35,406 nucleotides of DNA from Longimicrobium sp. GTDB taxonomy: Bacteria > Gemmatimonadota > Gemmatimonadetes > Longimicrobiales > Longimicrobiaceae. A program made the position numbers and the translations under genes. The DNA lies in contig DASUYB010000096.1 in assembly GCA_036377595.1 (NCBI GenBank), forward strand, positions 1 through 35,406. Direction: 5' to 3'. Under the pieces are notes generated by a model. The model worked only from the letters and a program-made list of their open reading frames with translations, was not told where the DNA came from and did not search any database. Shown here one piece after another: positions 2,758 to 31,277 of this stretch. Within the stretch, counting starts at the first letter, position 1, and every line of letters starts with the position of its first letter.

Positions 2758-4002
2758 GTGAGCCGGAACGCTTCGTCGTCCTCGCCGCTCCTCCTCCGCC
2801 TGGAGATCCGCCGCCTGTCGGACGCGTTCCGGCAGCCGCGGCCGGCGGCGTGGCTGGGTGCGCTGCTCCCGGCGGCGCTCGCGGCCGGCGCGCTCTGGCT
2901 GGCGGCCGACTCGGTGCGCCCGGACGTCTCCACCGGCGACGGGGTGATCCTGCTGGGGCTGCTCGCGTCCGGGCCAGTGGCGCTGCAGGCGTACACCCTC
3001 CTCTTCCGCCCGGCCGACGACGCCTTCCTGCGCCGGCTGGGGATCGACGCGCGGGCGCTGTTCGCCGTCCGCGCGCTCCGGCTTCTCCTGCTCGCGCTCG
3101 CGGTCGTCCTGGCGCTGATGATCCCCTTCATCGCCACTCGTCGACCGATCCTCGAGCCGCTGGGGATCGCGCTGGCGGCGGCGCTGGTGTCGTGGGCGGC
3201 GTCGCTGCTGACGCACGCGGACGCGGCGCGGCGGATCGCGGCGGGGATGCGGCCGCGGCTGCCGGGATCGCAGGGATTCGACATGGAGCTGGTGAAGGCG
3301 AGCGACCTGCTCTACGCGCCTCTCTGGCCGCTGATGGCGGGCGCCGCGGCCGCCACCTTCGCCGCCGCGCCGGTGGGGGCGATGCCGCTGCGGATCGCCG
3401 CCGTCGCGCTCGCCGCGGCGGCGATGGTGCCGCTGGCGATGCGGACGTTCGCGCGGGCGCTGCCGCGGTTCGCGCCGCACGCGGGCGAGCTGGCGTACGC
3501 CCCGCCGCCCGACGCGACCGGCGGCGAGCTGGTGATCGGACGGGGGATCGCGCGGGCGCTGCCGCGGCGCGCGCAGGCCGTCCGCGCGCGCGACGCGGTC
3601 GTGGTCGGCCGCCGCTACCGCTGGACGTCGCGGACGGCCTGGCCCGTGGCGATCGTGGCCGCGCTGGTGATCCTGCGCGCGGGCGGCGACGCCGCCGTGC
3701 GCACGTGGGTGACGCTCGCGTGCGGCGCGCTGCTCGTGGCGCAGGCCGCCGCGGTGGTGGCGCTCGGCCGCTCGGAGCGCGGGCGGACGCGGTGGATGGA
3801 CCGCGCGCTCGGCCTCCGCCCCGCCGACCGCCTGCTCGGGCGCTGGGCGACGGCGTTCGGGGTGGCGCTGGCCGTGGCGCTGCCGCTGGCCATCGCGTGG
3901 TGGATCGGGGTGGACGGCGGGCGGGGATGGATCTGGTTGGCGGCCGGGGCGGCGGCCGCGCTCGCCGCCTCGTCCGCGTCCCTGGCCGCGGCGGGGCGAT
4001 GA
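2758..4002 (+). CDS. Polytopic membrane protein, probable ABC transporter permease partner
   Basis: This 414-residue protein has many Ala/Leu/Val-rich membrane segments (for example around residues 30-55, 60-80, 105-130, 135-160, 195-235 and 290-400). I chose the GTG at 2758 because the reading MSRNASSS puts a short hydrophilic tail before the first helix; upstream in-frame sequence is non-coding in character. Its stop overlaps the start of an ABC ATPase gene (ATGA), so it is most likely the membrane subunit of that transporter. No conserved permease signature is recognisable, and the transported substrate is unknown. The assignment rests on topology and gene coupling rather than on a recognised domain. 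Confidence 0.72.
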   Translation: MSRNASSSSPLLLRLEIRRLSDAFRQPRPAAWLGALLPAALAAGALWLAADSVRPDVSTGDGVILLGLLASGPVALQAYTLLFRPADDAFLRRLGIDARALFAVRALRLLLLALAVVLALMIPFIATRRPILEPLGIALAAALVSWAASLLTHADAARRIAAGMRPRLPGSQGFDMELVKASDLLYAPLWPLMAGAAAATFAAAPVGAMPLRIAAVALAAAAMVPLAMRTFARALPRFAPHAGELAYAPPPDATGGELVIGRGIARALPRRAQAVRARDAVVVGRRYRWTSRTAWPVAIVAALVILRAGGDAAVRTWVTLACGALLVAQAAAVVALGRSERGRTRWMDRALGLRPADRLLGRWATAFGVALAVALPLAIAWWIGVDGGRGWIWLAAGAAAALAASSASLAAAGR

Positions 4003-4724
4003 TGGCGGAGCCGATGCCGCTGGAGGTGCGCGGGCTGGCGAAGAAGTACCGCCGTGGCGTGGTGCTGGGCGGGGTGACGTTCGACGTGCGCCCGGGCGAG
4101 GCGGTGGCGCTCGTCGGCCCCAACGGGGCGGGGAAGAGCACGCTGATCGGCTGCGTGACCGCCGACCGCCTGCCGAACGCGGGCACGGTGCGCATCTGCG
4201 GCGCCGACCCGTTCGCGGCGCCGGGGGAGGCGGCGGCGTGCCTGGGCTACGTTCCCGAGCAGCCCTTCCTCTATCCCGAGCTGAGCGTGGCCGAGCTGCT
4301 GCGCTTCGTGGCCGCCGCGCGCGGGCTGGACGACGCCGCGTCGGCGGCGGAGACGGCGCGGCTGCTGGCGCTGCTCGGCCTGGCCGGCGCGGAGTCCACC
4401 CTCTGCCGCGAGCTGTCGCAGGGGATGGGGAGGAAGACCGCCATCGCCGCCGCGCTCCTGCACCGCCCGCGGATGATCGTGCTGGACGAGGCGCTGAACG
4501 GCCTGGACCGCACCAGTGCCGAGCGCCTGGTCGCGGAGCTGGACGCGCGGCGGGGAGACGGCGCCGCGGTGCTCATCTCCAGCCATGACCTCGACTTCCT
4601 GGCGCGCTGGTGCACCCGCGGCATCCTCCTCCCCGGCAAGGCGCGCTGGCAGGAGCTGGAGGGTGACGAGTGGGAAGCGTGGCGGCGCGCGCCGGCGCTG
4701 GCGATCCCGGAGCGGGGCGACTGA
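3999..4724 (+). CDS. ABC transporter ATP-binding protein
   Basis: This is a 241-residue single-cassette ATPase. The Walker A motif GPNGAGKST (about residue 43), the Q-loop region YVPEQPFLYPELSV, the signature LSQGMGRK, Walker B MIVLDEALNGLD and the H-loop SSHDLDFL are all in order. The signature LSQGM rather than LSGGQ is typical of export-type ATPases of the CcmA/NatA group. The gene starts inside the stop of the preceding membrane protein, indicating translational coupling and a two-component exporter. The substrate is not evident. An alternative start is the next ATG, one codon downstream. Confidence 0.93.
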   Translation: MMAEPMPLEVRGLAKKYRRGVVLGGVTFDVRPGEAVALVGPNGAGKSTLIGCVTADRLPNAGTVRICGADPFAAPGEAAACLGYVPEQPFLYPELSVAELLRFVAAARGLDDAASAAETARLLALLGLAGAESTLCRELSQGMGRKTAIAAALLHRPRMIVLDEALNGLDRTSAERLVAELDARRGDGAAVLISSHDLDFLARWCTRGILLPGKARWQELEGDEWEAWRRAPALAIPERGD

Positions 4725-5794: not shown

Positions 5795-6262
5795 ATGCCC
5801 GCGACCAAGCAGAACGTGATCGACGCGTTGGACGACGTCACCGAGCCCTCCACGGATGTCTTTCTTCTGGTCGGCGAGGGGAAACAGGTCTTCTGGTCGG
5901 CACCCGGGAGCGGTTCCGATGTCCAGAAGGCGAAGTTCCACGCCGAGTCGGACTTCCTGCGAGCGTTCGACCAGCGGGAGGTCGAGGAAGGGGAGATCGT
6001 GGAAGTCACGATCAAGTGGAGTCCCTGCGGCACCTGCGCCATGCGGCTGGTCGACCTGAGCCAGATTCTGCAACAACGCCAAGCGCTGTTGGAGGTCTAC
6101 TATCTGGATGTCTTTCATGGGAAGGGCGGAGGCGTGTTGGGCAGCCTTGATCCCTTCGATGTCCTCGCGGCCGCCGGTGTGAAGCTCGCTGCCTACGAGA
6201 CCACGCATGACGGTGCGTGGTGGAACGATGGCAAACGGATGTGGGCGCACAAGCTGGGGTAG
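5795..6262 (+). CDS. Small cytidine-deaminase-fold protein with AID/APOBEC-like zinc signature
   Basis: This 155-residue protein carries a complete zinc-deaminase signature: His49-Ala-Glu51, then 25 residues, then Pro77-Cys78-Gly-Thr-Cys81. His49, Cys78 and Cys81 would bind Zn and Glu51 would be the proton shuttle. The Cys motif is preceded by Trp-Ser (KWSPCGTC), as in the SWSPC of AID/APOBEC enzymes, and HAESDFL resembles their HAE/HVE..FL helix. Predicted order: two strands (about 21-40), HAE helix, strand ending at WSPC, helix 79-95, strand LLEVYYLDVF, then AAGVKLAAY and a Trp-rich tail, like the RAGVQIAIM strand of AID. ATG 5795 has AGGAG 8 bases upstream; a TTG at 5777 is possible. G+C is visibly lower (about 58-60%) than in its neighbours. 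There is no signal peptide or toxin-delivery domain. The substrate is unknown. Confidence 0.8.
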   Translation: MPATKQNVIDALDDVTEPSTDVFLLVGEGKQVFWSAPGSGSDVQKAKFHAESDFLRAFDQREVEEGEIVEVTIKWSPCGTCAMRLVDLSQILQQRQALLEVYYLDVFHGKGGGVLGSLDPFDVLAAAGVKLAAYETTHDGAWWNDGKRMWAHKLG

Positions 6263-6849: not shown

Positions 6850-8790
<1,941 letters not shown>

Positions 8791-9648: not shown

Positions 9649-9870
9649 ATGAAGAAGCTGAAGCTGGAGTCGCTGGACGTCACCTCGTTCGAGACCGCCC
9701 CGGCCGCCGTGGCGCGCGGCACCGTCGACGCCAACAGCGGCATCCATCCGGGCGGCCCCGTCGTCCTCGAGACGTACGACATCGAAGCCTGCGGCGACAC
9801 CCGGTACTTCGACTGCACCTTCGGGTGCTCGGTGAACACCAACTGCCCGAACGGCTGCATCGAGCTGTAG
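9649..9870 (+). CDS. Pinensin-like RiPP precursor peptide 3
   Basis: This 73-residue peptide starts MKKLKLESLDVTSFET, the same leader type as peptides 1 and 2 but a different subgroup shared with peptide 4. The C-terminal core has five Cys and aromatic residues (CGDTRYFDCTFGCS, then NCPNGC). The CGDTxYFDCTxGCS block is conserved in peptide 4, whereas the remaining tail differs. It has its own likely promoter at 9581-9609, and peptide 4 follows after 32 bases, indicating a bicistronic transcript. Confidence 0.78.
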   Translation: MKKLKLESLDVTSFETAPAAVARGTVDANSGIHPGGPVVLETYDIEACGDTRYFDCTFGCSVNTNCPNGCIEL

Positions 9871-9902: not shown

Positions 9903-10166
9903 ATGAAGAAGCTGAAGCTGGAGTCGCTGGAGGTCACCTCGTTCCACACCTCCCCGTCCCCGTCCAGGGAGCGCGGCACGGTCGCCGCCAACTCCGACAT
10001 CAAGCCGAGCGGCCCGGTCACGCTCCAGACGTACAACATCGATATCTGCGGCGACACGCAGTACTTCGACTGCACGCTCGGCTGCTCGTACCTCACGTAC
10101 TGCACAACCTGCATGCAGGTAAGCTTCAACTGCGCGGTCGAGACCGCGGACTGCCCGCTCGGGTAG
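9903..10166 (+). CDS. Pinensin-like RiPP precursor peptide 4
   Basis: This 87-residue paralogue of peptide 3 has leader MKKLKLESLEVTSFHT, the conserved CGDTQYFDCTLGCS block and a longer tail with more Cys (YCTTCMQ, FNCAVETADC; seven Cys in all). It lies 32 bases after peptide 3 and ends before a perfect 17-bp hairpin. Like the others it lacks a neighbouring modification enzyme. Confidence 0.76.
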   Translation: MKKLKLESLEVTSFHTSPSPSRERGTVAANSDIKPSGPVTLQTYNIDICGDTQYFDCTLGCSYLTYCTTCMQVSFNCAVETADCPLG

Positions 10167-10194
10167 CCGCGCGGCCATCCACCCGTCCCGGAAA

Positions 10195-10232
10195 CACGGC
10201 GGGCCGGACTCACGCGAGTCCGGCCCGCCGTG
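10195..10232 (+). terminator. Strong terminator hairpin ending the precursor array
   Basis: A perfect 17-bp stem (CACGGCGGGCCGGACTC and its complement) has a 4-base loop ACGC, placed 28 bases after the stop of peptide 4. Confidence 0.78.
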
Positions 10233-10318
10233 CGGTGAAGGGTGTAGACTTTGTCAGCTAATACTCATCGGTTGGTGTCTCCTCCGTTCAGGAATGGCCC
10301 TCCAACCTGCGGATCTCG

Positions 10319-10585
10319 ATGAGCAAGCTTGATAAGTTGATCGAGAAGCTGCTAAGTGGAACGTCGGATGCGAACTTCTCGTTCAGCGAGTTGCGGTACA
10401 TCCTCCTGCACCTCGGGTTCGATGAGCGAATCCACGGGAGCCATCACGTGTACAGAAACGCGGAACGTCCGTCCGTGCGGGCTGTCCTCCAGCCCGATGG
10501 AAAAAACGCGAAGCCGTACCAGGTCGCTCAGGTCCGCGACGCGGTGCTGGAGTTGAACTCAGGAGGGGCAGATGGATCGGTATGA
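10319..10585 (+). CDS. hicA: HicA-family mRNA interferase toxin
   Basis: This 88-residue protein has the double-stranded-RNA-binding-like HicA fold: a helix, the strand-loop FSELRYILLHLGFDE, then GSHHVYRNAE, where the first His of GSHH is the family's catalytic residue, followed by a basic tail with LQPDGKNAKPYQVAQV. HicA toxins cleave mRNA and are held inactive by HicB. The gene overlaps the downstream hicB by 14 bases, the usual toxin-first order. At 88 residues it is slightly longer than the most compact HicA proteins. Confidence 0.88.
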   Translation: MSKLDKLIEKLLSGTSDANFSFSELRYILLHLGFDERIHGSHHVYRNAERPSVRAVLQPDGKNAKPYQVAQVRDAVLELNSGGADGSV

Positions 10586-10784
10586 GGTGATCATCTACTG
10601 GAGCGCCGCGGATGACGCTTTCATCGCCGCGGTGCCCGAGCTGAAGGGGTGCATGGCGCATGGCGCGACCCGCGAAGCTGCGCTTGCGAACGCCCAGGGT
10701 GCGATCGCCGCGTGGATCGCTACCGCCAGGGAGTTCGGCGATCCAATTCCGGAGGCGAAGGGGCGGACGCTGCTCGTGGCATGA
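10572..10784 (+). CDS. hicB: HicB-family antitoxin (short form)
   Basis: This 70-residue protein has the HicB partial RNase H-like fold: YEVIIYWSAADDAFIAAVPELKGCMAHGAT, then a helix EAALANAQGAIAAWI. A strong ribosome-binding site (AGGAGGGG) lies a few bases before the ATG, inside the 3' end of hicA. The protein ends soon after the fold, so it lacks the C-terminal helix-turn-helix or ribbon-helix-helix domain through which longer HicB proteins repress their own promoter. Autoregulation is therefore not expected from HicB alone. Confidence 0.87.
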   Translation: MDRYEVIIYWSAADDAFIAAVPELKGCMAHGATREAALANAQGAIAAWIATAREFGDPIPEAKGRTLLVA

Positions 10785-22831: not shown

Positions 22832-23146
22832 ATGATCGGCTGGTTCAGGAAACATCGCGACGGCGTGGCGGCAGTCCCTTTGGATACTCTGTACCGAAGA
22901 AACGATCACGTTGTGGCCGCACAGGAGGGTGACCGGACCGTTCTTCTCGATCCCGTCCAGGGCGAGTACTTCGGGCTGGACGAGGTGGGGACGCGGATCT
23001 GGGCGCTGCTTCCCGAGCATCCCACCGCCGCCGCGCTCGCGGACCGACTGTTCGACGAGTACGACGCCCCGCGCGAGACGCTGGCGGGAGACGCCGCGCG
23101 CCTTCTCGGCCAGCTCGCGGCGATGAAGCTGGTGGTACGCGCGTGA
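22832..23146 (+). CDS. Lasso peptide biosynthesis PqqD-like RRE protein (B1)
   Basis: This 104-residue protein has the PqqD/RiPP-recognition-element fold: LYRRNDHVVAAQEGDRTVLL, then DPVQGEYFGLDEVGTRIWALL, then helices containing LADRLFDEYDAP. In lasso systems this protein binds the precursor leader and delivers it to the B2 protease. It is the first gene of B1-B2-C, overlapping B2 by a GTGA junction. The N-terminal 17 residues (basic, MIGWFRKHRDG) precede the usual domain start; a TTG at 22880 would remove them. A 9-codon open frame (22806-22835) overlaps its ATG. Confidence 0.88.
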   Translation: MIGWFRKHRDGVAAVPLDTLYRRNDHVVAAQEGDRTVLLDPVQGEYFGLDEVGTRIWALLPEHPTAAALADRLFDEYDAPRETLAGDAARLLGQLAAMKLVVRA

Positions 23147-23532
23147 GCGTGCCCTCAGTGGCGCGTTGCGCGCTGGCGCTGCTGGTCGTGCGCGGGTGGC
23201 TCAAGGCGCGCGGCTTCGGGCCCACGGTGGCGCGCTGGCGGCGCCTCGGCGAGCGGGCGACCGGCGCCGGCCTCACGCCGGACGAGGTGGAGCGCGCGGC
23301 CTGGCACGTGGCCGTGGCGGCGGCGTTCTTCCCCGGGCGGGCGGTGTGCCTGGAGCAGTCGCTCGCGCTGTACGTGCTGCTGCGCCGCCGCGGCGTCCCC
23401 GCGGAGCTGCGGCTGGGCGTGCAGGTCTACCCGTTCTACGCGCACGCCTGGGTGGAGCTTGGCGGCCGGCCCGTGAACGAGGACCAGGAGACGGTGGAGA
23501 AGTTCCGCCTTCTTCCGCAGGTGGCGGTGTGA
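23143..23532 (+). CDS. Lasso peptide leader protease, transglutaminase-like (B2)
   Basis: This 129-residue protein has the lasso B2 pattern. The catalytic Cys69 is in GRAVCLEQSLALYVLLRRRG, His101 in FYAHAWVELGGRP and Asp114 in VNED form the Cys-His-Asp triad of transglutaminase-like proteases. It removes the precursor leader, exposing Gly1 for ring closure. It starts (GTG) within the B1 stop and ends within the C start, so the three proteins are translationally coupled. The length matches stand-alone B2 proteins of split-B lasso systems. Confidence 0.92.
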   Translation: MSVPSVARCALALLVVRGWLKARGFGPTVARWRRLGERATGAGLTPDEVERAAWHVAVAAAFFPGRAVCLEQSLALYVLLRRRGVPAELRLGVQVYPFYAHAWVELGGRPVNEDQETVEKFRLLPQVAV

Positions 23533-25376
23533 GCCGCTTTGCCTGCGCCGCCGCGGCGCCGGGAGCGGAGATTCCGCCCGCACTCCGGCCTCGACTGGCG
23601 GCGGGGATCGCCGCGCCCGGAAACGCCGCCGGCGCGCTGGACGGCGACGGGTTCTCCGCGATCGCGAGCACGGAGGCCGACGCGCTGCGTCCGCTCCTCG
23701 CCCGCCGCGGCGCGCTGCTGGCCGCGGGTGACGTGCGCCTGGACAACCGCGCGGAGGTGGCTTCGTGGGGCGGCGTCCGCGCGGACGGCAGCTCCGACCT
23801 GGAGATCGTGCTCGCGGCGCACGCGGCCCGCGGCGCGAAGTGCCTGGACGGCGTGCTGGGCGATTTCTCCATCGTGCTGTGGGATGGAGATCACCGGACG
23901 CTGACGGCGCTGCGCGACCCGTTCGGAGTGAAGCCGCTCTTCTTCTCCCGCCAGGGCGACGTCCTTCTCCTCTCTTCCCGCGCGGCGGCGCTGGCGCGCG
24001 AGGGGGATCTCGACGAGGAGTGGATCGCCGACTTCCTCGTCGGTGGCATCGGCCCGCGCGACCGCACGGTGTGGGCGGGCGTGCAGTCCGTCGTCCCCGG
24101 CGAGGCGCTGGCCTGGCGCGACGGGAATCTCACGCGCCGCCGCTTCTGGTCCGCGGCCGATTTCGCGCCGGCGGCGGCCGTAGACGAGCGCGCGGCGACG
24201 GACACCTTCCGCGATCTGCTCGAGGAGGCGGTGCGCGTCCGGATGGAGGGCGGCGTCCCCATCTGGTCGCAGCTTTCCGGCGGGCTCGATTCGTCGTCCG
24301 TCGTCTCCGTCGCGCAGACGCTCGCCGCCGCGGGGAGGGGGCCGGCGATCGCCGGCACGGTGACGCTGGTGGAGACGCTGGGCGACGGCGACGAGCGCAA
24401 GTACTCGGACGTGGTCGTCCAGCGCTGGGGGCTGCGCAACGAGACGGTGGTCGACCCTTGGGCGTGGCAGGACGACGGGTTGCCGGCGGAGCGGACGGAC
24501 GAGCCGCGCGCGCACTTCCCGTTCTGGGCGCGCGACCGGGCGATGGTGGCCGCCGTGCGCCGCGCCGGCGGCCGGGTGCTCCTCTCGGGCCAGGGACCGG
24601 ACCACTACCTCACCGGCAACCTGGGCCACGTCACCGACCTCGTCGCCACCGGCCACCTCCGCAGGGCCATGCGCGAGCTGGTGCGCCACGCCGTCGCCGA
24701 GCGGCAGTCGTTCTGGACCGGGCTCGGGCGCCACGCGATCCATCCCTTCCTCCCCACCTGGCTGAAGCTGCGCCGGGCGCGTCCCCACGAACAGCTCCCG
24801 CGGTGGCTCGATCCGGGCTTCGTGCGGCGGATGGAGATCGCCCGGCGGCTGCCGATGGTGCGCGGGCTGGCCGCGCCGCGCGGGGGGAGCTTCTTCGCGC
24901 ACCAGGTGGCGTCGGAGCTGGACGGATTGTCGGGGATGCTGGAGCGCGGGCCATTCCAGGAGGGGATCGAGATGCGCTATCCCTTCCTGCATCGCCCGCT
25001 GGTGGAGCACTCGCTCCGCCTGCCGCCGGGGATGCGCGTCCGCCCCGGCGCGGGGAAGCACGTCCTGCGCGAGGCGATGCGCGGCATCCTTCCCGAGGAG
25101 ATCCGCACGCGCCGCGGCAAGGGCGGCATCGACGCGCGCCTGCTGTGGGCGCTGCACCGCGAGCGGGCGCGGCTCGACCACCTCCTGCGCGACCCGGAGA
25201 TCGCGCGGCGCGGCTGGGTGCGCGCCGACGCGCTCCGCGCCGCCACCGAGCAGGCGCGCCAGGGCGAGGTGAAGAGCCTGCCGTTCCTGCTCTGCTCGCT
25301 GTCGCTGGAAACCTGGCTGTCGGTGCGCGCGGGGCGCTGGGAAGCGTCCGCGTCCTCGCCCGCCGCGGCGGCCTGA
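23529..25376 (+). CDS. Lasso peptide macrolactam synthetase, asparagine-synthetase-like (C)
   Basis: This 615-residue protein has an N-terminal glutaminase-like domain (LDNR at 71-74, GDFSIVLWD at 111-119, RDPFGVKPLFF from 129) and a C-terminal synthetase domain with the pyrophosphatase loop SGGLDSS (residues 250-256). It activates the Glu8 side chain as an AMP ester and closes the amide with Gly1. Like other lasso cyclases, it lacks the N-terminal nucleophile Cys of true asparagine synthetases (it begins MSRFAC, with no Cys2). The GTG start overlaps the B2 stop. A perfect 9-bp hairpin follows 10 bases after the stop, before the precursors. Confidence 0.93.
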   Translation: MSRFACAAAAPGAEIPPALRPRLAAGIAAPGNAAGALDGDGFSAIASTEADALRPLLARRGALLAAGDVRLDNRAEVASWGGVRADGSSDLEIVLAAHAARGAKCLDGVLGDFSIVLWDGDHRTLTALRDPFGVKPLFFSRQGDVLLLSSRAAALAREGDLDEEWIADFLVGGIGPRDRTVWAGVQSVVPGEALAWRDGNLTRRRFWSAADFAPAAAVDERAATDTFRDLLEEAVRVRMEGGVPIWSQLSGGLDSSSVVSVAQTLAAAGRGPAIAGTVTLVETLGDGDERKYSDVVVQRWGLRNETVVDPWAWQDDGLPAERTDEPRAHFPFWARDRAMVAAVRRAGGRVLLSGQGPDHYLTGNLGHVTDLVATGHLRRAMRELVRHAVAERQSFWTGLGRHAIHPFLPTWLKLRRARPHEQLPRWLDPGFVRRMEIARRLPMVRGLAAPRGGSFFAHQVASELDGLSGMLERGPFQEGIEMRYPFLHRPLVEHSLRLPPGMRVRPGAGKHVLREAMRGILPEEIRTRRGKGGIDARLLWALHRERARLDHLLRDPEIARRGWVRADALRAATEQARQGEVKSLPFLLCSLSLETWLSVRAGRWEASASSPAAAA

Positions 25377-25386
25377 CCCGAGTTTC

Positions 25387-25409
25387 GCCGGCGGAAACCG
25401 TCCGCCGGC
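25387..25409 (+). terminator. Hairpin between the cyclase gene and precursor 1
   Basis: A perfect 9-bp stem (GCCGGCGGA/TCCGCCGGC) has a 5-base loop, starting 10 bases after the cyclase stop. There is no T-tract, so it may be an RNA-processing or attenuation element rather than a full terminator. Confidence 0.55.
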
Positions 25410-25470
25410 ACGGGCGGGCGTCACGGCGGCGCCTGCCGATATCCACACCCTTGCTGGGAGAAGCAGACCG

Positions 25471-25587
25471 ATGAAGAAGACGTACACGACCCCGACCGTC
25501 GTGAAGCACGGCAACGCCGTGGCCGTGACCCTCGGGAACTTCGGTTGGGCGCTCGAGCTCATCAACTGGCGCATCGGCCTCCCCTGA
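25471..25587 (+). CDS. Lasso peptide precursor 1 (A1)
   Basis: This 38-residue precursor has a leader that fits the lasso consensus YxxPxLxxxGxxxxxTx: Tyr5, Pro8, Val10, Gly14 and Thr20 at position -2. The predicted core starts at Gly22 and reads GNFGWALELINWRIGLP (17 residues), with an isopeptide bond expected between Gly1 and Glu8 (Glu29 of the precursor). The loop and tail keep LINWR, shared with precursor 2. GGAG lies 10 bases before the ATG. The core sequence is read directly; the cleavage site and ring are inferred from the family rule. No Cys is present, so this would be a class II lasso peptide. Confidence 0.88.
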   Translation: MKKTYTTPTVVKHGNAVAVTLGNFGWALELINWRIGLP

Positions 25588-25641
25588 GCGGGTGATCCGC
25601 GGGTTCGTGCCGGCGGGTCCGCGAGATGGGCTCGCCGGCAG

Positions 25642-25666
25642 GGCAGGCGCCGCGGCGGCGCCTGCC
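25642..25666 (+). terminator. Hairpin between precursors 1 and 2
   Basis: A perfect 11-bp stem (GGCAGGCGCCG/CGGCGCCTGCC) has a 3-base loop, located 34 bases before the ATG of precursor 2. There is no T-tract. Confidence 0.55.
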
Positions 25667-25699
25667 GGCATCCACGCCCATGCTGGGAGAAGCAGACCG

Positions 25700-25810
25700 A
25701 TGAAGAAGACGTACTCGACCCCGATCCTGGTGAAGCACGGCAACGCCGTGGCCGTGACCCTCGGGCGGGGCAGCCAGCTGCTCGAGCTCATCAACTGGCG
25801 CGCACACTGA
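25700..25810 (+). CDS. Lasso peptide precursor 2 (A2)
   Basis: This 36-residue precursor has a leader differing from precursor 1 only at residues 6, 9 and 10 (Tyr5, Pro8, Gly14 and Thr20 kept). The predicted core is GRGSQLLELINWRAH (15 residues), with Gly1-Glu8 ring closure. Compared with precursor 1, core positions 2-6 change from NFGWA to RGSQL, while LELINWR is identical and the tail is shorter, ending Ala-His. The ribosome-binding site and 60 bases upstream are nearly the same as for precursor 1. An open frame extends upstream but lacks a ribosome-binding site. Confidence 0.88.
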   Translation: MKKTYSTPILVKHGNAVAVTLGRGSQLLELINWRAH

Positions 25811-25820
25811 GCCAGATGCC

Positions 25821-25855
25821 GGCCGGCGAGCCCTCCGCGTGGGGGCTCGCCGGCC
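25821..25855 (+). terminator. Hairpin between precursors 2 and 3
   Basis: A perfect 13-bp stem (GGCCGGCGAGCCC and its complement) has a 9-base loop, 11 bases after the stop of precursor 2. It is the strongest of the intra-operon hairpins. Confidence 0.65.
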
Positions 25856-25939
25856 CGGGTCCGGTCGGCGGACTGGCCGCAGCGCACACGATCCCCCACC
25901 ATCCGGGGATACACCCCCGGCGGAGAAAGCGAGGAGCGC

Positions 25940-26071
25940 ATGGACAAGAAGCCCTATGTTCCGCCCCAGATCACCAGGCACGGCAACGCGGTGCAGATGA
26001 CCGCAGGCGAGCACGGCCGCGCGCTGGAGCTCATCAACTTCCGCCCGGGCCCGCCGTTTCCGCGCCCGTAG
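25940..26071 (+). CDS. Lasso peptide precursor 3 (A3), divergent with Pro-rich tail
   Basis: This 43-residue precursor keeps the lasso leader rule (Tyr6, Pro9, Gly15, Thr21 at -2) and the HGNAV block of the other two leaders. The core is predicted from Gly23: GEHGRALELINFR followed by an eight-residue tail GPPFPRP-like and rich in Pro. Glu8 of the core (Glu30) is the likely ring acceptor; the Glu at core position 2 is too close. LELIN(F)R is conserved. A good ribosome-binding site (GAGGAG) precedes the ATG. It lies outside the 229-bp duplication and is the oldest or independently acquired copy. Confidence 0.86.
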   Translation: MDKKPYVPPQITRHGNAVQMTAGEHGRALELINFRPGPPFPRP

Positions 26072-26460: not shown

Positions 26461-27981
26461 CTATGGCTCCTTATTAGGCGGTCTTTGTTTTCTTTCGCGT
26501 ACACGCTTGATCACGGGCAAAAGGTCCTTTCTCACCTGCTCCCAAGCAACCGATCTGGGATTCGTCTCCGCGATGCTGCTGTACTTCGATGCCAGCCGCT
26601 GAAGCTTTCCAAGATGCGGATCTTCGTCCGCGGCGCACGGTTCTAGTTTCACGCAGACGATCTCTACCTCACCAACTTCCCACCGTTCCCGGGCACGCCT
26701 AAGTTCGGGGTTTCTTATATAGGTACTCACCAATGACCTTTGACTAGCAATAAACAGAAAGATATCCATCTCTTCAAGGCGCCGCCGAATCTCCTCGTCC
26801 CATTCATCGCCTGCGATCAGCCGCTTGTCTAGCCATGGTACCAACCCATGGTGCTGCTCGAGAACACCGAGCGTCGCGTCCAGTCGCTGAAGCTGCCGTT
26901 CGTCCTTGTGTGCATAGCTCACAAAAATGCGCACAGGCACCGGGGCGGTGGTCGGATCACGGTTAATCGCGCGAGATTCTGCGGGTTCCAACTTGTCGAG
27001 TTCGAGAGGGACATTCACTTCTGCCGTTCCATCTGGCCGGATTGGCAGCTTTTTCATCGGTATTTCGGGTTCTTCGATTTCGCGCAGTGCTTTAACTCCG
27101 ATCCAACTCTCGGCCGCACCCGTTAGCTCCAACTCTTCGACAGGTGCCATCTTCATCTCGCCGTGCAACGCCTCCAATTCACGGCGCACCATGGTCACTA
27201 GCACTTGTCGTGTGTCGTTGTCGCCTCCGAGGACAAAAACGTCAAGCTCGGGCCTATCCGACTCTTCACGGATAAGCGCCGACGCTTCTCCATGGCGCAG
27301 TACGACACCATGACGCCAATGCGGAGCTCCCTCGCTCAAGGCGTGCGTGCGGACGATAAAACGGGGTAGTAACCCTGGCGGAAGCACCTCGTAGCTGTAG
27401 CGTAGGCGAACGGGTGCCTCCTCCCAAGGTTCTGCCATTTCCGGTTCGAATTCCGGAAGAAGCTCTGGCACAAGATAGCGCTTGGCCGGTACTCCCGGCT
27501 CCCCTTCTTCTTCGCTGGCAAAGCAGAGCTGGAACGCGCGCATAAGTTCAAGTATGAACGGGTGCGTCTCAGCCGGATAGTCACGCGCCTTGACCACTCT
27601 TTGAGCCTCGGCCTCCTCCAGCACGCGCGGCATAGTGCTGACCGCGAGTTGCCCGTTGTTCTCTGCCACTGAGGGCGATCTGATAACCGCGTATACGCCG
27701 CCGGTCACCCATCTAGGATTCAGCACGCGAGTATCGTGGAGCCGTGGGTCCTTCCCGAAGTAAAGCGCTAAGCCGAGGGCGTGCAGGATTCCTGCGAGGT
27801 CCGCCTGTGCGTCTGGATCTGTCTCGCCGTTCTCGTTGCAAAGCTCGGCGTAGCGTCCATAAGGAAGGAAGTTGTCGCTCATTCCAGCGACATGGTTCTT
27901 AATGGCGCGCCAACGATCGGGAAACGGGAGCCAAACGTCTGGCATTTGTTCGTCTACAGTTTGCGAAATTGAACTTCGCAA
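26461..27981 (-). CDS. C-terminal half of a split ROCO protein: COR and TIR domains
   Basis: The 506 codons continue the ROCO protein that starts at 28975 but in another frame. The frame is open from about 28095, and the first usable start is TTG 27981. Sequence just upstream in this frame (ending STDALYGDGIDSLR) is the end of a Ras-like domain, so a complete gene once spanned both parts. COR-like sequence covers about residues 15-300 (WLPFPDRWRAIKNH, LNPRWVTGGVYAVI, LLPRFIVRTH). A TIR domain begins at about 349 (RIFVSYAHKDE), with SLVSTYIRNPELRRA, where Glu426 is at the place of the NADase catalytic Glu. Whether this half is still expressed is unknown. Confidence 0.8.
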   Translation of the reverse strand: MRSSISQTVDEQMPDVWLPFPDRWRAIKNHVAGMSDNFLPYGRYAELCNENGETDPDAQADLAGILHALGLALYFGKDPRLHDTRVLNPRWVTGGVYAVIRSPSVAENNGQLAVSTMPRVLEEAEAQRVVKARDYPAETHPFILELMRAFQLCFASEEEGEPGVPAKRYLVPELLPEFEPEMAEPWEEAPVRLRYSYEVLPPGLLPRFIVRTHALSEGAPHWRHGVVLRHGEASALIREESDRPELDVFVLGGDNDTRQVLVTMVRRELEALHGEMKMAPVEELELTGAAESWIGVKALREIEEPEIPMKKLPIRPDGTAEVNVPLELDKLEPAESRAINRDPTTAPVPVRIFVSYAHKDERQLQRLDATLGVLEQHHGLVPWLDKRLIAGDEWDEEIRRRLEEMDIFLFIASQRSLVSTYIRNPELRRARERWEVGEVEIVCVKLEPCAADEDPHLGKLQRLASKYSSIAETNPRSVAWEQVRKDLLPVIKRVRERKQRPPNKEP

Positions 27982-28060
27982 ACTGTCGATCCCATCACCG
28001 TACAGCGCATCCGTTGAGATAAAATCTACAATGAATGGAAATTTTCTGCGTAGTTTTACT

Positions 28061-28975
28061 TCATCGACCTTTCCAGCGCCGACCTCGACTCCAGTTCATG
28101 ACTACAATTACCGGTGAACCATCCCCTTGCGTCTCAATCAGCTTCAACCAGTATTCCGCGTCGCGCTGAGCCAGTCCGGTTCGCGGCTCCAACACTAACA
28201 CATAGAGACTACGCTCGGTGAGGAAAAACTGATGGGTTGAGTGAAGTATCTCCTGTCCGCCGAAATCCCAGGCCCGCGTACGCACTGAACCACGCGGACA
28301 TTCGAGCACGAACTCGCGAATTGCAATTGAATGGGTCTCTTCTTCGTTCCTGCGCGGTATCTCACCCGCGAGCAGCTTTACCAGCGTGGTTTTTCCCGCT
28401 TTTCCACGTCCTACCAAAAGGAGTTTCAACTCGAGAAGTGGCCAGCCCTTCTTCCCGCGCGACTCGAAATAATAACTAAGAATTTCACCAGGCCGTTGGG
28501 TACTGAGGACGCTCTCTGGAATATTTAGAGCAGGGTTTCCGCGGAGTTGCAGCACAGAAAGGCGGGACATAGTACGAAGCGATTCTGGTAACGTCTCAAG
28601 CTCGTTCCTCTCAAGCAGCAACCACTCCGCGGGACTGGCGGCGATACCTCTCGGCAAATTTCTCAGCAGATTCATGCTCAAATCCAACACCCGAGCCGGA
28701 ATTTCTCCGATCCATGAGGGTAATGAACTGAGGCCGTTTCCAGCTAGACTGAGGACTTCAACATTACGAATCTCTCGCAAACTGTTTGGGACCGAGCGGA
28801 GTCCCAGTCGCGCGAGGTCAAGAACCCGAAGTTGCACACCGCCGATACGATAAGACTGAACCCAAAACCCTGTAGGTCGTTCACCAGATTTCCATGCCGC
28901 GATCCGCTCCTCCGCAATCTGCTCCGGGGAGCGTGTATCTCTTACTTTCACTCTGCGATTGGATTTCTTTCCCAT
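28061..28975 (-). CDS. N-terminal half of a split ROCO protein: LRR and Roc GTPase domains
   Basis: The 304 codons encode about five leucine-rich repeats (residues 48-155; LRVLDLARLGLRSVP, VEVLSLAGNGLSSLP) and a Roc GTPase domain with P-loop GRGKAGKTT (189-197) and G3 DFGGQE (237-242). The frame runs into a stop right after VIVVMNW, where the G4 motif NKxD is expected; the Lys is missing and the frame shifts between 28064 and 28095. The following frame continues the domain. This is a frameshift by net +1 or -2 in a once-continuous LRR-Roc-COR-TIR gene, so likely a pseudogene unless it is a sequencing error. Confidence 0.8.
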   Translation of the reverse strand: MGKKSNRRVKVRDTRSPEQIAEERIAAWKSGERPTGFWVQSYRIGGVQLRVLDLARLGLRSVPNSLREIRNVEVLSLAGNGLSSLPSWIGEIPARVLDLSMNLLRNLPRGIAASPAEWLLLERNELETLPESLRTMSRLSVLQLRGNPALNIPESVLSTQRPGEILSYYFESRGKKGWPLLELKLLLVGRGKAGKTTLVKLLAGEIPRRNEEETHSIAIREFVLECPRGSVRTRAWDFGGQEILHSTHQFFLTERSLYVLVLEPRTGLAQRDAEYWLKLIETQGDGSPVIVVMNWSRGRRWKGR

Positions 28976-29181: not shown

Positions 29182-29859
29182 TCACGCCTTCCCGCGCAGT
29201 CCGTCGACCCACTCGCGCGTCGCCTCGCCCATCTCGGCGAGGACCTGGGGGTCGGTGCGGCCGGAGGACTTCAGCACGTGGAAGGAGTGGTCGGCGCCTT
29301 CCAGCCAGTGCATCCGCCACTCCGTCTTCACCGTCTGCAGCGCGCGCTCCATCAGGTCGCGGCGGCAGAGCTCGTCGCGCGTGCCGTTGAAGCAGAGCAC
29401 GGGCACGGTGATGTTCGGCAGGTGCGCGTCGCGCAGCTTTTCCGGCTGGCCGGCCGGGTGGAGGGGATAGGCGAGGAGAAGGAGCCCGTCGCAATCGAAC
29501 CCCTCCGCCGCCAGCATCGACGCCGCGCGCCCGCCCATCGACCGCCCGCCGATCACCATCACCTCCGGCTTCAGCTCCTCGCGCGTCCGCTCCACCACGG
29601 CGCGGACGCACTGCATCAGCGCGGGCATCGGGTCGGGGCGTCCCGATCCCCGTTCCTTGTAGAGGAAGTTGAAGCGGACCAGGCTCAGCCCCCGCGCGAG
29701 GAAGGCGTCGCGCGCCTTGAGCATGGCGCCGTCGCCCATGTGGCCGCCCGCGCCGTGCGCGCAGACGAACACCACGCCCGGGTCGCCGCCCTCCGCCGCG
29801 TCGTGGACCGCCGCCGTCTCCGCGTCGCCAACGGCGACGCGCCAGGTGGCGGCGCTCAC
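29182..29859 (-). CDS. Alpha/beta hydrolase of the KANL3/Tex30-like family
   Basis: This 225-residue cytoplasmic protein has VVFVCAHGAGGHM (oxyanion region), nucleophile elbow GGRSMGGRAAS, Asp in FNGTRDELC and His in EGADHSFHVL, giving a Ser-Asp-His triad. The GTG start overlaps the stop of the amylase gene (GTGA), so it is the second gene of that operon. The natural substrate is unknown; relatives are often annotated as dienelactone hydrolase-like. An in-frame open region continues far upstream in the amylase gene but is a shadow. Confidence 0.88.
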   Translation of the reverse strand: MSAATWRVAVGDAETAAVHDAAEGGDPGVVFVCAHGAGGHMGDGAMLKARDAFLARGLSLVRFNFLYKERGSGRPDPMPALMQCVRAVVERTREELKPEVMVIGGRSMGGRAASMLAAEGFDCDGLLLLAYPLHPAGQPEKLRDAHLPNITVPVLCFNGTRDELCRRDLMERALQTVKTEWRMHWLEGADHSFHVLKSSGRTDPQVLAEMGEATREWVDGLRGKA

Positions 29860-31277
29860 CGCACCAGCACCCGCCAGCCGTGCGCGGGAACGTCCAGCGT
29901 TCCCGTGGCGGCCAGCTGCACCGGCGCGCGGCCGAACCAGTCGCTGTAGCTCCCCGGCCGCGGCAGCCCCTGGTAGGTGACGTGCGCGGGCAGGTCGCCG
30001 AAGTTCACCGCGACCAGCACCGTGTTCGACTCGAGCGTGCGCGTGTAGGCGTACACGCGGCCGCCGCCGTCCGTCTGCAGCTTCACCTGCGGCGCGCCCC
30101 ACGGCCCGTTGGCGAGCGCGGGCTGCGTGTGCTTCAGCTCCAGCATCCGCGCGTAGAAGTCCGCCAGCGACGGCCCATTCCAGTTCACCGTGTCCTTGTC
30201 GAAGAACCGCAGCCGCCGGTTCAGGCTGGCCTCCTGGCCGGTGTAGAGCAGCGGCATCCCGTTCTCCGCCGTGGAGCTCAGCACGAACGCGGGGAGGTGG
30301 TTGGCGCCCATGCGCTCGAACTCGGTGCCGTTCCAGCTGTTCTCGTCGTGGTTGCTGGTGAAGTACATCCGGTAGGCCCCGCGGCCGTAGCGCGTCTCCT
30401 GCCGCGCGAAGTAGTCGTCCAGCTCGGCGGTCGTCTTCTTCGCCTGCGCGATCTCGTTCAGCAGGTGGTGCAGCTCCCAGCCGTAGGTCATGTCGAACGC
30501 GGCGTGCATCTCCGGGCTCTCCGCCTCGGCCAGGAGGAAGAGGTCCGGGCGCACGGCCTTGAGCGCCGTCCTGGCCTGCATCCAGAAGTCCATCGGCACG
30601 CCGCCGGCCACGTCGCAGCGGAAGCCGTCGATCCCCATCCGCTCCACCCACCAGCGCATCTCGCCGATCATGGCCTGGCGCATGGCCTGGCTGTCGTAGT
30701 TCAGCTCGGCCACGTCGGTCCAGTCCGTCTCGCGCCCCTCGTTGTCGCGCGCGTTGGAGATGGTGCCGTCGGCGCGGTGCACGTACCAGTCGGGGTGCGC
30801 GGCGATCCACTCGTGGTCGTGCGCGGTGTGGTTCGCGACCCAATCGAGGATGACCTTCATCCCCTGCGCGTGCGCGGCGTCGACCAGCGCGTGGAAGTCC
30901 GCCTCGCTGCCGTGCTCGGGGTTGGTCGCGGTGTAGTCGCGGATCGCGTAGTAGCTCCCCAGCGGGCCCTTGCGATTCTTCATCCCGATCGGCTGCACCG
31001 GCATCAGCCAGAGGATGTCCACCCCCATCCGCTTCAGCCGCGGGAGATGCCGCTGGAACGCGGCGAAGGTCCCCTCCGGCGTGTACTGGCGGACGTTCAC
31101 CTCGTAGATGTTCGCGGCGCGCGACCACGAGGGGTGGAAGGTGGTGTCCTCGTTCGGAACCAGCCGCGCGTTGATGGAGGGCGGCGTGGCCGCGGCCGAG
31201 CCGTACGCCGCGGGGCCCGGCGCCGCGCAGGCGGAAAGGGCGAGCGCCGCGGCCGCCAGGAAGGGAAGCGTCCTCAT
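29856..31277 (-). CDS. Alpha-amylase family (GH13) lipoprotein
   Basis: This 473-residue exported glycoside hydrolase has a signal peptide MRTLPFLAAAALALSAC with a lipobox (LSAC). Its barrel has the GH13 conserved regions: WLMPVQPIG, DWVANHT (region I), GFRCDVAGG with the nucleophile Asp (region II), LLAEAES with the acid/base Glu (region III) and TSNHDEN (region IV). A small C-terminal beta domain ends the protein (GTLDVPAHGWRVLVR). It should hydrolyse alpha-glucans outside the inner membrane. ATG 31277 is preferred; a GTG at 31307 would add ten residues ahead of the signal. Confidence 0.93.
   Translation of the reverse strand: MRTLPFLAAAALALSACAAPGPAAYGSAAATPPSINARLVPNEDTTFHPSWSRAANIYEVNVRQYTPEGTFAAFQRHLPRLKRMGVDILWLMPVQPIGMKNRKGPLGSYYAIRDYTATNPEHGSEADFHALVDAAHAQGMKVILDWVANHTAHDHEWIAAHPDWYVHRADGTISNARDNEGRETDWTDVAELNYDSQAMRQAMIGEMRWWVERMGIDGFRCDVAGGVPMDFWMQARTALKAVRPDLFLLAEAESPEMHAAFDMTYGWELHHLLNEIAQAKKTTAELDDYFARQETRYGRGAYRMYFTSNHDENSWNGTEFERMGANHLPAFVLSSTAENGMPLLYTGQEASLNRRLRFFDKDTVNWNGPSLADFYARMLELKHTQPALANGPWGAPQVKLQTDGGGRVYAYTRTLESNTVLVAVNFGDLPAHVTYQGLPRPGSYSDWFGRAPVQLAATGTLDVPAHGWRVLVR

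Follow-up and report, generated by a model that had tools for sequence, protein, structure and literature searches.

A predicted three-precursor class II lasso peptide cluster without a local exporter in Longimicrobium sp.

Analysis of a contig from Longimicrobium sp. revealed a gene cluster whose sequence is best read as a class II lasso peptide cluster with three precursors and without a local exporter, isopeptidase or tailoring kinase. The window analyzed here is the whole 35.4-kb contig, which belongs to a genome of 7.2 Mb in 208 contigs. The reading builds on gene content, motifs, clade-wide architecture and the pattern of variation between related precursors, all of which were observed directly. 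Together they make it highly probable that the locus is an ordinary split-B lasso operon yielding three class II lasso peptides.

Biosynthetic enzymes and precursor genes

The cluster is encoded on the forward strand and starts with B1 (positions 22832 to 23146), the gene for an RRE of 104 amino acids with the PqqD fold, i.e., a leader-binding protein. B1 passed the Pfam cut-off for PqqD (E = 2.3e-16), so that the RRE component of a split-B lasso cluster is present; it also matched the lasso_PqqD families of NCBIfam, but below their cut-offs. In a search of the PDB with a B1 profile, the best matches were TbiB1 (5v1u; E = 2.9e-21) and TfuB1 (6jx3; E = 1.5e-14). The second gene, B2 (23143 to 23532), encodes a transglutaminase-like cysteine protease of 129 amino acids, the putative leader peptidase, which scored 99.4 bits (E = 2e-28) against lasso_biosyn_B2 (NF033537), well above the cut-off of 33. 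Its profile had no match in the PDB.

The third gene, C (23529 to 25376, GTG start), encodes an Asn-synthetase-like protein of 615 amino acids with Asn_synthase (Pfam, E = 3.2e-43) and GATase_7 domains and an SGGLDSS motif at residue 250, which represents the macrolactam cyclase of a split-B lasso cluster and aligns with the cyclases of its clade. The best NCBIfam match was the lasso cyclase family NF033535 (E = 4.1e-66), whose strict, exception-type cut-off was not reached because C is too divergent for it. All plasmid matches of C showed less than 60% identity, with at most 29% among the matches listed. While a scan of the genome contigs with the single sequence detected no relatives of C, an alignment-based scan yielded six loci. 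The genes overlap by GTGA at 23143 (B1/B2) and 23529 (B2/C). An earlier note, made from the sequence alone, had already given this gene order with the same coordinates and junctions, the SGGLDSS motif and the identity of B1 as an RRE; our gene calls and profile searches agree on every one of these points.

Closer examination of B2 led to a different assignment of the catalytic triad. Cys69 and His101 are invariant in the aligned B2 proteins of the clade, and Glu113 is nearly so: the position 12 residues after the histidine holds Glu in 11 of 13 clade proteins, Asp in one (L042) and Ala in another (L117). In B2 proteins from outside the clade, this position is most often Asp (11/26). The next residue, Asp114 in this cluster, varies freely. 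Since the usual triad of lasso leader peptidases is Cys-His-Asp (PMC11420955, PMC7533575), the aligned acid is Glu113 and Asp114 is not conserved, the clade enzymes, judged by sequence alignment, most likely use Cys69-His101-Glu113. Thus, two members of the previously suggested triad Cys69-His101-Asp114 were retained and the third, although present, was replaced. An acidic third residue is typical of the lasso B2 family rather than its defining feature.

Three precursor genes follow C on the same strand (given as leader / core): A1 at 25471 to 25587 (MKKTYTTPTVVKHGNAVAVTL / GNFGWALELINWRIGLP), A2 at 25700 to 25810 (MKKTYSTPILVKHGNAVAVTL / GRGSQLLELINWRAH) and A3 at 25940 to 26071 (MDKKPYVPPQITRHGNAVQMTA / GEHGRALELINFRPGPPFPRP). 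Searching the 7.2-Mb genome with a precursor profile returned exactly these three matches, all in the cluster (E = 9e-23 for A3, and 3e-20 and 2e-17). Among the NCBIfam lasso precursor families, A1 exceeded the cut-off of lasso_leader_L3 (NF033521; 22.1 bits, cut-off 19), while A2 and A3 reached none. The leaders conform to KKxYxxP...G.....T, and all three precursors combine the YxxP leader with Thr(-2), Gly1 and, within the expected range of Asp or Glu at positions 7 to 9, Glu8. The cores of 17, 15 and 21 residues (A1, A2 and A3, respectively) contain no cysteine, and the products are therefore assigned to class II. Three precursors with YxxP...G.....T leaders and Glu at core position 8, giving class II products of these lengths, are also what the earlier note had described.

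The three residues Thr(-2), Gly1 and Glu8 recur in 14/14 precursors of the family, including the outlier G018. Among 13 family precursors, G1, E8 and I10 never vary and an aromatic residue always occupies position 12; G4 and R13 are kept in 11/13 each and N11 in 9/13. The three cores in the window share LELIN(W/F)R, as claimed before, but this motif does not begin just after the ring, as L7 and E8 lie within it. Its supposedly unusual strictness likewise holds only among the three paralogues: with all 13 family precursors compared, what remains is the looser E8-x-I10-N-(F/W)-R13, and the motif is lost in G018 and more distant members.

Clade-wide architecture, genomic setting and export genes

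In a cyclase tree, C falls into a clade of 14 rows with support of 100/100, whose members come from the host family, one further family of its order, and two additional families of the class. Clade relatives share the order B1-B2-C-A, with the precursors directly 3' of C in every case where they were detected together with their cyclase. They number from one to four: G003, G018, G031, G041 and G033 have one each, G009 has two, the window and G001 have three, and G014 has at least four, with copies at the end of another contig. The 3' position of the precursors and the missing exporter are thus common to a well-supported clade and are probably not accidents of assembly.

An ABC exporter gene was detected neither within 14 kb upstream nor within 9 kb downstream of the cluster. 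The nearest ABC genes lie 15 to 19 kb upstream and encode an ABC-F protein (6850 to 8790) and an ABC ATPase paired with a permease-like protein (about 2758 to 4724). The latter pair was considered as an exporter and rejected, being 18.5 kb away and having no relative by the cluster in G003, G001, G018 or G009. Relatives of two ABC exporters from this genome were absent near the cluster in all 14 clade loci, several of which are cut by contig ends. Counted by hand in loci with about 3 kb or more on both flanks, an exporter within 5 kb was present in 0/6 clade loci vs 8/12 other lasso loci (Fisher P = 0.013), a rough test as the genomes are related. Since exporter relatives are absent near the cluster across the clade loci, it is probably a property of the clade, not an assembly gap, that no exporter is encoded locally.

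The isopeptidase family NF033523 had no match above its cut-off in the whole genome, and the weak matches resembled those in control genomes. An alpha/beta hydrolase at 29182 to 29865 was discarded as a candidate, as it belongs to Abhydrolase_11 and lies beyond a tRNA and other genes. The claims of the earlier note that no ABC transporter, isopeptidase or kinase lies nearby therefore stand, the last in that no tailoring kinase belongs to the cluster in its best reading. The genome search for a transporter acting in trans, which the note had proposed, returned 12 PF00664-type ABC exporter matches elsewhere. Given these matches and the missing isopeptidase, export in trans by one of the encoded ABC exporters would be possible.

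In the window and in its close relative G003, the cluster is flanked by a DUF488 gene upstream and a tRNA-Gln gene downstream, and these shared flanks suggest one inherited locus within the genus. The setting is different in G001 and G018, so the cluster has also moved. There (L088, L089) it lies near a shared block of proteins that begin like trigger factor (tig), ClpP and ClpX, named by eye; this neighborhood may be coincidental or may hint at a target related to Clp. In a sister family (f2; L052, L054, L116), the cluster is found near a menaquinone biosynthesis gene (VitK2_biosynth), and in L052 and L054 a response regulator and kinase-like pair lies upstream of it.

The intergenic regions between the precursor genes harbor potential RNA structures on the forward strand. 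Two GC-rich hairpins were found between A1 and A2 (25608 to 25666; z = -3.5 for the whole intergenic region), and a long perfect hairpin between A2 and A3 (25821 to 25855) gave a weak signal (z = -1.8). GC-rich hairpins also occur in the C-A1 gap (z = -2.4) and in one gap of G001 (z = -2.3); two further stretches gave no such signal. That they affect transcript stability or attenuation is no more than a guess. A promoter and terminator scan, which is uninformative for this phylum, found neither.

Some other genes also drew attention. A protein of 155 amino acids (5795 to 6259, forward strand) with HAE and SPCGTC motifs matches AID/APOBEC-like deaminases (SNAD4, E = 2.8e-8; APOBEC3, E = 2.6e-7), which is unexpected on a bacterial contig; no recognized toxin or phage gene adjoins it. 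Two tandem small proteins (9649 to 9867 and 9903 to 10163, forward strand) start with MKKLKLESL(D/E)VTSF and weakly match the pinensin leader NF038180 (E = 7e-4, below the cut-off). They are possible lanthipeptide-like precursors, and no modification enzyme for them was recognized within the window. On the reverse strand, by the tRNA-Gln gene (26461 to 28975), adjacent LRR-Roc (28061 to 28975) and COR-TIR (26461 to 27981) frames have the appearance of a single LRR-Roc-COR-TIR (ROCO) protein interrupted by a frameshift, unless they are a genuine pair of genes. Elsewhere in the genome, a second PqqD and transglutaminase-like pair (L059, G000:C5:30000-42149, at about 9984 to 10703), also present in relatives, has no lasso cyclase detected nearby and is perhaps a different RiPP system.

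Ring variation among tandem precursors

A1 and A2 arose by tandem duplication, as 125 nt comprising the leader and upstream DNA are 91% identical. Their differences are unevenly spread: the leaders differ at 4/63 nt and codons L7 to R13 at 0/21 nt, while ring codons 2 to 6 (25537 to 25551 in A1, 25766 to 25780 in A2) differ at 11/15 nt between nearly identical flanks (Fisher P = 2e-8, only indicative because the stretch was chosen after inspection). The variable ring positions 2 to 6 of the earlier note are thereby borne out at the nucleotide level. Close paralogues in two other genomes lean the same way, with 7/60 leader and 10/18 ring nucleotides differing in G001 and 6/60 and 8/18 in G014.

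The A3 type shows the opposite picture. Its core ring is nearly the same in two congeneric species, and G001 (GEHGRTLEFINFRPG) as well as G014, which belongs to another genus (GNHGRALELINFRPG), have near-identical cores. G003 encodes only an A3-type precursor and does not have the A1/A2 duplication; relative to this counterpart, 11/60 leader nucleotides of A3 have changed vs 0/18 in ring codons 2 to 7, so the A3 product looks preserved. Taken together with the ring changes between paralogues, this points to one product conserved across species and to lineage-specific copies that would diversify the ring. The best explanation is that the single shared cyclase handles a loop and plug that stay fixed, and that the ring face is free to change. 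Selection or recombination may drive the ring pattern, which is seen in few copies.

Predicted pathway, rival explanations and relation to known lasso peptides

From the cluster we infer the enzymology, threading, export route and role of the variable ring as follows. B1 would bind the KKxYxxP leader, and B2 would cleave after residue -1, one past Thr(-2), by means of Cys69-His101-Glu113. C would then use ATP to adenylate Glu8 and link it with Gly1, closing the ring around a tail that is already threaded. The predicted products of 17, 15 and 21 residues would have monoisotopic masses of 1937.03, 1730.93 and 2338.25, respectively. The shared E8-L-I10-N-(W/F)12-R13 most likely forms the loop and plug, the part that the one cyclase must fold, and ring residues 2 to 6 would be the variable, target-facing part. 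Export would most likely proceed through a general ABC exporter encoded elsewhere.

The observation is not due to chance. The scores of C below the strict cut-off of NF033535 and of A2 and A3 below all NCBIfam precursor cut-offs count against the lasso assignment. PqqD/transglutaminase loci with no cyclase detected nearby are present in this genome (C5) and in related ones, and the cluster might be a different PqqD and transglutaminase RiPP system that includes an Asn-synthetase-like enzyme. With B2 above the lasso equivalog cut-off and precursors bearing every lasso hallmark, we consider this extremely improbable. It is also unlikely, though far less so, that A3, as the most conserved precursor, is the only true substrate and A1 and A2 are decaying duplicates, or that the enzymes make unthreaded branched-cyclic peptides. 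The restriction of G003 to the A3 type and the divergent rings of A1 and A2 would fit such decay, which would not have spared the features that both copies keep: an uninterrupted frame preceded by GGGAG resembling a ribosome-binding site, the residues Thr(-2), Gly1 and Glu8, and identical L7 to R13 codons. The paralogues in G001 and G014, which lean to the same pattern, argue in the same direction.

Lasso products that stayed in the cell, e.g., as regulators, would also explain why ABC exporter relatives are missing around the cluster in the DNA covered for all 14 clade loci, the 0/6 vs 8/12 count and the clade-wide lack of an isopeptidase. We give this a small chance, as any of the 12 PF00664-type exporters could act in trans and a diversifying ring is more in keeping with a target outside the cell. 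A more far-reaching version of the preferred reading, the split-B operon for three lasso peptides, is offered tentatively and may well not hold: an exporter-free Gemmatimonadota lasso system with a Cys-His-Glu peptidase, in which diversity comes from changes confined to ring codons 2 to 6 of tandem copies, gene conversion or selection holds both leader and loop/plug (E8-L-I-N-(F/W)-R) constant, and a natural scaffold for swapping the ring face results.

Both multi-precursor lasso clusters and clusters that lack a D gene are well known (PMC7549694, PMC9266682, PMC12670498). Caulosegnins I to III, caulonodins I to III and xanthomonins I and II from Proteobacteria are likewise class II peptides with several precursors per enzyme set (PMC7549694). 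Their clusters differ from the one described here in a fused instead of a split B protein, and the core sequences are unrelated. In these proteobacterial clusters, the precursors precede the enzymes. Many exporter-less proteobacterial clusters carry an isopeptidase (PMC7549694), the defining gene (NF033523) of isopeptidase-type clusters, for which no match above the cut-off exists anywhere in this genome; mcjD-type clusters encode their own ABC exporter, which is also missing here. The Tbi (TbiB1, PDB 5v1u/5v1v) and Tfu/fusilassin (TfuB1, PDB 6jx3) systems share the separate RRE and peptidase and the YxxP leader, in contrast to which the present cluster has its precursors 3' of C, no exporter, and a peptidase triad whose third residue is probably Glu rather than Asp.

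The ring pattern G1-x-x-G4-x-x-x-E8 of microcin J25-type RNA polymerase inhibitors is matched by 11/13 family precursors. Differences are that position 9 is Leu or Phe here, that the tails are unlike, and that there is no mcjD-like exporter. The A1 leader matches lasso_cyano (NF033528) and lasso_leader_L3, the latter above the cut-off, with the cores outside the match; A2 and A3 remain below both cut-offs. Text searches of the literature for the core strings of A1 to A3 and for lasso peptides in Longimicrobia returned no paper, and papers naming lasso peptides along with Gemmatimonad- words appeared, from titles and abstracts, to give them no more than a passing mention. The absence of the core strings from the literature searched agrees with the earlier view that the cores match no named lasso peptide, and no characterized lasso peptide from Gemmatimonadota was found in it. 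The three peptides hence appear undescribed, whereas their kind, i.e., lasso peptides from multi-precursor, exporter-less clusters, is already known.

With this cluster, the phylum Gemmatimonadota gains a coherent lasso peptide family that appears not to have been described before. Its paralogues suggest that the cyclase tolerates change at ring positions 2 to 7, but not at G1, E8, I10 and mostly R13, a pattern useful to lasso engineering, and the clade-wide lack of an exporter offers a clean case for how lasso peptides leave the cell.
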